DNA from: a bacterium
GTDB lineage: Bacteria > Patescibacteriota > Minisyncoccia > Phycocordibacterales > Phycocordibacteraceae
Reading direction: 5' to 3'
DNA: 37,703 nt
Assembly (NCBI GenBank): GCA_021778295.1
Contig: JAJYCP010000004.1
Location: forward strand, 1-37,703
Position numbers and translations under genes: made by a program. A model generated the notes under the pieces. That model saw only the letters and a list, made by a program, of their open reading frames with translations, searched no databases and was not told the DNA's origin. Below are positions 3 to 25,715 of this stretch, one piece after another; position 1 is the first letter of the stretch; every line of letters starts with the position of its first letter.

Positions 3-407
3 GAAGGCACTGCCCTTCACATACACCAGCATCTCGATTTGCGTATCAATGGCAGTCCCGTTGCCGTTCCCGCGGGAATCGGAATAGACGAATCGGCCGG
101 GTTTATCTCGCCCGTTCACACGCACGACACCAGCGGCATCATCCATGTCGAATCGGACACCATCCGTAACTTCACGCTCGGAGAATTCTTCGACATCTGG
201 GGCGTGCGCTTTACAAAAGATTCTATCGGCGGCTATACGGCTTCCGCGACGACTACGCTCGCCGTCTATGCGAATGGTTCGCTTGTGACGGGCGATCCCC
301 GCAATCTCGTGCTTACCGAACACCAGGAAATCGTCATCGAGTATGGTACGAACAAAGAAATGCTTAAAACCGTACCCACGTCGTACACTTTCCCTCCCGG
401 TTATTAA
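3..407 (+). CDS. Hypothetical protein, 5'-truncated by window edge
   Basis: Open frame runs from the window edge (EGTALHIHQHLDLRINGSPVAVPAGIGI...HTHDTSGIIHVES...) to TAA at 405-407. Conserved-looking His-rich motifs; family not identified. Confidence 0.75.
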   Translation, partial: EGTALHIHQHLDLRINGSPVAVPAGIGIDESAGFISPVHTHDTSGIIHVESDTIRNFTLGEFFDIWGVRFTKDSIGGYTASATTTLAVYANGSLVTGDPRNLVLTEHQEIVIEYGTNKEMLKTVPTSYTFPPGY

Positions 408-621
408 AACCCACCTCAAACTCCCGCTCGGGTATGCGACAGAAAGGAGTACGCCGTCTTTTTGTGCTCTAAAAGCGGCTCGTACTCGTTCCCGTTACCA
501 CAGAGAGTACTTCCAAGTTTCTAATTCGCTTCGCTCATAAGAAACTTTAAGTCGCGCACTCCGTAAGCCTCTTTCTGCCGCATACCCCTCGCGGGGAGGC
601 GGGGGTTGAGGTGGGTTCTAG
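404..621. repeat. Interspersed ~220-bp element with imperfect terminal inverted repeats, copy 1
   Basis: Left end aacccacctcaaactcccgctcgggtatgcgacagaaagg is an imperfect inverted match of right end tctttctgccgcatacccctcgcggggaggcgggggttgaggtgggtt. Highly similar to 16350-16569. Confidence 0.85.
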
Positions 622-7075: not shown

Positions 7076-7131
7076 ATCGTTGCCCGCGTGCGCCTTTAGA
7101 TTGGAGATGCTCTGTGGTAAAGTACCCGCAC

Positions 7132-7207
7132 GCGCGGTTAGCTCAGTTGGTAGAGCATCTCATTGACGTTGAGAGGGTCAGGGGTTCGAGTCCCTTACCG
7201 CGCACCA
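7132..7207 (+). tRNA. tRNA-Val(GAC), CCA encoded
   Basis: GCGCGGTTAGCTCAGTTGGTAGAGC...TCTCATTGACGTTGAGA...GGTTCGAGTCCCTTACCGCGCACCA. Confidence 0.95.
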
Positions 7208-15482: not shown

Positions 15483-15486
15483 GCGG

Positions 15487-15559
15487 TGCTTGGAGTCGGG
15501 CTCGAACCGACGACCCCCGCCTCTTCAGGGCGATGCTCTACCAACTGAGCTATCCAAGC
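15487..15559 (-). tRNA. tRNA-Phe(GAA)
   Basis: GCTTGGATAGCTCAGTTGGTAGAGCATCGCCCTGAAGAGGCG...GGTTCGAGCCCGACTCCAAGCA; full CCA not encoded. Confidence 0.94.
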
Positions 15560-15563
15560 GTTA

Positions 15564-16349: not shown

Positions 16350-16569
16350 CTAGAACCCGTCTTAAGCCCCCGCGAGGCGTATGCGGCAGAAAGGAGTACG
16401 CCGTCTTTTTCTGCTCAAAAAGCGGCTCGCGCTCGCGCCGTTACCACAGAGGGTACTTCCACGTTTCTAACTCGCTCCGCTCATAAGAAACTTTAGGTCG
16501 CGCGCTCCGTAAGCCTCTTTCTGCCGCATACGCCTCGCGGGGGAGGTGGGGGGTTTGAAATGGTTTTAG
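16350..16569. repeat. Interspersed ~220-bp element with imperfect terminal inverted repeats, copy 2
   Basis: ctagaacccgtcttaagcccccgcgaggcgtatgcggcagaaaggagtacgccgtc...agcctctttctgccgcatacgcctcgcgggggaggtggggggtttgaaatggttttag; near-colinear with 404-621. Confidence 0.88.
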
Positions 16570-18774: not shown

Positions 18775-18825
18775 ATGAAGTCCTTTCGTGCCACGCCCCT
18801 CGCGGGGGTTTGAGAAGGGTTCTAA
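18775..18825. repeat. Degenerate right-end relic of the interspersed element
   Basis: agtcctttcgtgccacgcccctcgcgggggtttgagaagggttctaa aligns with the right ends of copies 1 and 2. Confidence 0.6.
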
Positions 18826-25308: not shown

Positions 25309-25672
25309 TCCGGCCGGGCCAGGTGATTGCCCCTAAAAAAATTGCGGGGAGGAAAGTCCGAACACGGCCCCGTCTTCAAGGCGGGGAGAACGGTAGCGGG
25401 TAACGCCCGCACGCCGTAAGGCGCGAGGTGCGAGCAGAGACGCTTCCGACGAAAGGCAGGAAGCGTCTTCCGGAGCGAAAGCTCCGGAAGACGAGTTCTC
25501 GAGGCGACTCGGGAGGTGAAACGGCTAAATCCTTACCTCCGTGCAAGGCCGTGTCCGTCCTTTGTGACGGAAGTGCCGCTTGAGGTTCCGAGCGATCGGG
25601 ATCCCAGATAAATAATCACCTCGGTTCTCTTCAGGGGAATCCAGACAGAATTCGGCTTATCGGCCCGGCCGA
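25309..25672 (+). ncRNA. rnpB: RNase P RNA (rnpB, bacterial type A)
   Basis: P1 pairing ccggccgggcc/ggcccggcc; CR-I gaggaaagtccgaacac; agagacgcttccg; ggaggtgaaacggctaaatcc; 3' acagaattcggcttat. Strong GAAA-capped hairpin cgtcttccggagc-gaaa-gctccggaagacg. Confidence 0.93.
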
Positions 25673-25673
25673 T

Positions 25674-25715
25674 CAAATGCGAAAACCCACGCTCCTGCGT
25701 GGGTTTTCGCATTTG
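25674..25715. terminator. Bidirectional terminator hairpin between rnpB and nrdJ
   Basis: caaatgcgaaaacccacgc-tcct-gcgtgggttttcgcatttg, perfect 19-bp arms, convergent neighbours. Confidence 0.85.

Follow-up and report, generated by a model that had tools for sequence, protein, structure and literature searches.

A MITE-like composite of nested palindromes in a patescibacterial genome

The composite element and its copies

The window, as the whole 37,703-nucleotide stretch of DNA analysed is called here, carries close to its left end a composite palindromic element that follows an open frame of 134 codons without any Pfam match (Table 1). A sequence-only reading had placed the element at 404–621 and described inverted ends, an internal agtttct/agaaact hairpin, a left end coinciding with the TAA of the upstream gene and the absence of an encoded transposase. 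All of these features are present: measured from TA to TA the bounds are 405–620, and a second pair of arms lies inside the inverted ends. The same reading regarded the element as a single unit, and in this respect it has to be revised: three palindromic units are nested in one another, outer (unit 1), middle (unit 2) and inner (unit 3), each of which is distributed separately. Dispersal, empty alleles and structural covariation, on which the reading had made its proposal depend, are all found. The stretch 405–620 folds 6.7 SD below dinucleotide shuffles on the plus strand and 7.9 SD below on the minus strand, a level reached by 0/200 shuffles. Raw folding energy was discarded as evidence for the element, as other tiles of the GC-rich window fold equally well.

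Table 1. Coordinates of the composite element and related features in the window
Feature	Position	Strand	Remark
Complete composite element, copy 1 (LONG form)	405..620	+	TA to TA, 216 bp
Left terminal inverted repeat TAAAACCCACCTCAAA	405..420	+	starts with the three bases of the upstream stop codon
Right terminal inverted repeat TAGAACCCACCTCAAC	605..620	-	
TAA stop codon of upstream open frame	405..407	+	supplied by element terminus
Inner palindrome P1, left arm	430..449	+	sequence GGGTATGCGACAGAAAGG
P2 hairpin of conserved core	453..477	+	
Inner REP-like hairpin repeat in P4 loop	496..554	+	missing at orthologous site in G087
Inner palindrome P1, right arm	568..587	+	sequence CCTCTTTCTGCCGCATACCC
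Copy 2 (LONG form)	16351..16568	+	86% identical to copy 1
Solo terminal remnant	18798..18824	-	full SHORT element at same site in G087

A DNA search of the 495-kb genome to which the window belongs (G000) reveals about 28 related loci: nine are of the LONG form, some of them cut by contig ends, 16 are of a SHORT form that lacks ∼60 bp in the middle, and three retain the middle part only. Several contigs terminate within copies, as repeats would lead one to expect. The orthologue of copy 2 in the related genome G087 stands in the opposite orientation. As the nearest relative of G000 is only 87–90% identical, recent transposition is not seen directly. The solo remnant lies just upstream of a tRNA gene in plus-strand coordinates.

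Three nested units with separate distributions

Unit 1 is defined by ends of 16 bp, TAGAACCC(A/G)TTTCAAA, whose first and last bases are TA. In the relative G103, identical ends enclose interiors unlike the one found in G000, including a bare 60-bp unit; because these interiors are unrelated, the outer ends constitute an independent module. Many copies bear terminal inverted repeats ending in TA, as MITEs of the TA type (IS630/Tc1-like) do, and comparison of G000 with G087 uncovers precise empty sites: queries joining the flanks of four sites occupied in G087 find uninterrupted matches in G000. The TA target duplication can be read cleanly at both junctions of one site only (L197/L225), where the element measures 157 bp, the two alleles differ by 155 bp and a single TA is present when the site is empty and two when it is filled. 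At L213/L229 it is clean on the left only, the right end of L213 being lost, and the junctions of L195/L227 and L192/L231 are blurred. In four draft assemblies no such ends lie ∼1 kb apart, and the label 'MITE-like' is used because no full-length transposon sharing the ends was found there. The MITE-like, non-autonomous option offered by the sequence-only reading is upheld by the dispersal, the TA ends and the precise empty site with one TA. Additional palindromes are associated with this layer. At L329 (G087:C6:81500–82500) a second middle unit with different arms has seemingly entered a TA-ended element immediately 3′ of the stop codon of a helicase-like gene; at L314, L315 and L319 more unrelated palindromes (e.g. 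CTTTGAATTAGGAAACTCCATTTGCGAC...) are nested in or lie beside TA-ended elements.

Unit 2 is a palindrome of ∼100 bp, composed of long paired arms (P1), a hairpin P2 with the loop UGCU and a hairpin P4 with the loop CGUC. Searching 93 genomes of the genus with the SHORT form gives matches in 35, most of which extend across the core only; the arms in these matches differ in sequence yet pair, and pairing is also kept at orthologous positions. Over 25 sequences the named structure leaves 83.4% of cells paired, compared with 64.5% in shuffles, and the covariation amounts to 0.472, compared with 0.160 in shuffles, 0/500 of which reach the observed value. Changes on both sides are present in 21/21 arm pairs, and the covariation signal is lost when the partner is shifted by 1–3 columns. 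With a covariance model, unit 2 is detected in 55 of the 289 genomes that represent the class, with copy numbers that reach at least 12, the number scored per genome; the phylum sample adds 15 genomes from further classes. Nearly every locus inspected retains an intact core; the arms vary between almost all loci and within one genome are largely unrelated, with a mean identity of 0.36–0.43. Genome sizes range from 0.3 to 1.5 Mb throughout the sampled group, which agrees with the CPR membership assumed by the sequence-only reading. At one locus, L298 (G297:C4:54000–56300), two middle units are arranged head to head, a few bases apart.

Unit 3 is a hairpin repeat of ∼60 bp with the consensus ACCACAAGAGTACTTC - stem - TAAYTCGCTTCGCTCRTAA - stem - GTCG, represented by 27 copies with 14 different left stems. 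It occurs alone within the order, and LONG copies carry it within the P4 loop of the middle unit; the site orthologous to copy 1 in G087 harbours the SHORT form, that is, the element devoid of unit 3. A further copy lies inside the RNase P RNA gene of G004 (L095 1136–1178, G004:C14), which still passes the Rfam gathering score.

Stop codons and in-frame insertions

The most unusual trait of the family is a tendency of the outer unit to coincide precisely with gene stop codons. In the TA-ended subfamily, the longest frame that runs into the terminal TAA or TAG has it in phase, as its stop, at 40 termini and in another phase at five; for frames of at least 150 codons the figures are 29 and 0. 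When orthologous sites of G000 and G087 are merged, 26 of 33 independent loci have the in-phase stop of a frame of at least 100 codons at a terminus. The contact with a stop codon at copy 1, which could be taken for a local coincidence, is instead a rule of the family. In the same two genomes stop codons make up 80 of 897 harmless TA sites (8.9%) and 43 of 153 harmless YTAR sites (28%), so that the excess over random harmless sites has P = 1.2e-21 (TA) or 2.2e-9 (YTAR), a statistic that is based on mechanical frame calls from a pair of related genomes and does not separate targeting from survival. At both L197/L225 and L213/L229 the gene in the empty allele ends in a native TAA or TAG exactly where the element starts: one site reads '...ITILGS TAA' when empty and '...ITILGS TAG' running into the element when filled, and the other reads '...LLERAS TAG' in both alleles. 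The case of L195 is not an empty site with a native stop. Intergenic copies of unit 2 without TA ends, in other genomes, lie at a median of 8 bp from the 3′ ends of genes, with 35 of 53 within 20 bp; for 5′ ends the median is 24 bp.

Pure survivorship may account for this placement: insertion would occur at random TA sites, and only copies at stops or between genes would persist. Insertions elsewhere in dense genes would truncate them, and an element terminus supplies a stop of its own. Survival alone should, however, leave the majority of copies at other intergenic TA sites, and the small share of stops among harmless TA sites, and even among harmless YTAR sites, contrasts with their presence at most of the independent loci. 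This explanation is somewhat unlikely.

Palindromic insertions also reach into protein genes, most clearly dnaE, which was identified by Pfam DNA_pol3_alpha, DNA_pol3_finger and HHH_6 and compared across 92 genomes of the genus. In most of them one loop reads 'PPDVNESGTDFTVV-few residues-IRFGLSSIKNFG'. In the 24 genomes analysed this loop accommodates 45–261 extra bp, and all 24 inserts are multiples of three and free of stops. The unit 2 model matches the insert in 17 of the 24, twice over in two genomes. These copies are mostly antisense to the gene. They occupy all three phases, which led to the rejection of a conserved reading frame within unit 2 and suggests repeated insertion at a tolerant loop, the alternative being indels after one insertion. 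Several other inspected unit 2 loci are likewise spanned by long frames. The dnaE loop between PPDVNESGTDFTVV and IRFGLSSIKNFG is an insertion hotspot (L165–L189, ∼24 genomes); the inserts L180, L185 and L183 have no model match and may be other palindromes.

Mobility, maintenance of pairing and known repeats

The search for a mobilising transposase was directed at the Y1_Tnp family and found none that could be tied to the element. It bears on the proposal that an IS200/RAYT tyrosine transposase (Y1_Tnp) mobilises the middle palindrome, which would then be a repeat of the REP/BIME type. A GGAG/GCAG motif before the P4 stem on one strand is reminiscent of tagged REPs (PMC3733652, PMC2817692), and the inner 60-bp unit is REP-like and sits in hairpin loops. 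Association with Y1_Tnp genes is nevertheless lacking at both the neighbourhood and the genome level: apart from one chance-level match, the unit 2 model finds nothing beside 30 Y1_Tnp loci; Y1_Tnp is present in 38 of 55 element-bearing genomes and in 189 of 289 overall, and is thus no commoner in carriers; and G050, G153 and G363 contain 6–11 elements each and no Y1_Tnp. A REP near the Y1_Tnp locus L095 was rejected as evidence of linkage, since it lies in RNase P RNA. A RAYT-driven origin is unlikely on these grounds. Less probable still is a conserved structured RNA (a 3′ UTR hairpin, terminator or RNase III site) that is under selection for pairing and whose dispersal is secondary. Strong helix covariation, conserved loops, a position just 3′ of stop codons (median 8 bp) and pairing kept at orthologous positions despite diverged arms would all fit such an RNA. 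On the other side, both orientations occur, several reading phases are used in dnaE, one copy is inverted between relatives, and an Rfam search returns no known RNA family for the element. If pairing were selected in RNA, the transcribed strand should show greater tolerance of G-U than of A-C. In the strand transcribed together with the upstream gene, however, the arm cells comprise 451 Watson-Crick pairs, 23 G-U and 25 A-C, in a modest sample of 29 intergenic copies, each flanked by the 3′ end of a single gene. The structured RNA that the sequence-only reading had entertained is disfavoured by this lack of a G-U excess and of an Rfam match.

Because G-U and A-C are equally frequent, the pairing looks maintained as DNA rather than as RNA. 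In E. coli, quasipalindromes are known to mutate through template-switch correction (PMC7202029), and template switching of this kind could rewrite the arms without selection.

Taken as a whole, the family is best explained, and probably correctly, as a set of nested palindromes that together form a non-autonomous mobile element of DNA. The outer unit would act as a MITE: its inverted repeats, with their TA ends, would be joined to TA sites by a transposase encoded elsewhere, and the TA would be duplicated in the process. These target sites probably resemble YTAR; stop codons of the form TAA or TAG after a pyrimidine would be strongly favoured or retained because the TAG or TAA of the terminus replaces the stop and leaves the protein unchanged. 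The middle unit would be an older repeat, spread separately and carried by the outer one, that occupies the 3′ ends of genes and sometimes lies in frame within them, as Rickettsia palindromic elements (RPEs) do; into its loops the third, REP-like hairpin repeat would insert. Arm pairing would be preserved in the DNA itself, probably because template switching at the hairpin copies one arm onto the other and probably also because the hairpin is recognised as DNA, rather than through selection on an RNA structure. A more far-reaching version, speculative and rather unlikely to hold in its entirety, envisages a phylum-wide DNA-hairpin system in which an enzyme places the TA-ended unit on stops by direct preference and not by survival, smaller hairpins enter the loops of existing ones, and nested arms are rewritten by template switching.

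The family is best labelled a MITE-like composite, made up of nested palindromes and working in the manner of RPEs. The palindromic elements of Rickettsia and Wolbachia are repeats of ∼100–150 bp, with mobility not explained, which are found in intergenic positions, within RNase P RNA and, in frame, in the interior of conserved protein genes (PMC2229807, PMC10969869). The palindromic repeats described here share these habits: they lie between genes, in frame within conserved genes (dnaE in 17 genomes, and a few other frames) and in RNase P RNA, where unit 3, but not unit 2, was seen, in G004. As the likeness rests on habits and not on sequence homology, the element is not filed as an RPE. It differs in belonging to another phylum, in arms that diverge around a short conserved core, in the TA-ended outer nest and in the strong stop-codon placement. 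To our knowledge, the spread of small RPE-type palindromic repeats with no visible transposase has lacked an explanation since their first description.

Correia/NEMIS, RUP and ERIC, which are TA-ended MITEs, resemble the element as short non-coding units with inverted TA ends and TA duplication; RUP is mobilised by IS630-Spn1. In-place inversion, reported for Correia elements (PMC10969869), is shared by copy 2. The differences reside in the exact and repeated stop-codon placement, the separately distributed palindromic cargo and the lack of an IS partner among those sought here. REP/BIME repeats (GTAG and CGTC families) are likewise small hairpin repeats, both intergenic and intragenic, whereas the present element stands apart by its composite size, its branched core with two conserved hairpins and its long covarying arms. 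The CGTC REPs, which include RPE-4 and RPE-6, are also devoid of a transposase (PMC3733652). A literature search retrieved no report of such repeats in Patescibacteria or of insertion elements targeting stop codons, which is weak negative evidence.

The family provides a large comparative set, with dozens of genera, empty and filled alleles and a dnaE hotspot scored in 92 genomes. It offers a clear test of RNA versus DNA maintenance of pairing and a directly testable stop-codon rule, and it exemplifies how, in streamlined genomes, repeats can drive protein insertions into an essential replication enzyme.

Elsewhere in the window, the RNase P RNA gene of G000 (class A) is located at 25311–25675, where the scan flags no repeat insertion, and the longest inverted repeat is formed by two tRNA genes, at 7130–7206 and 15485–15561.
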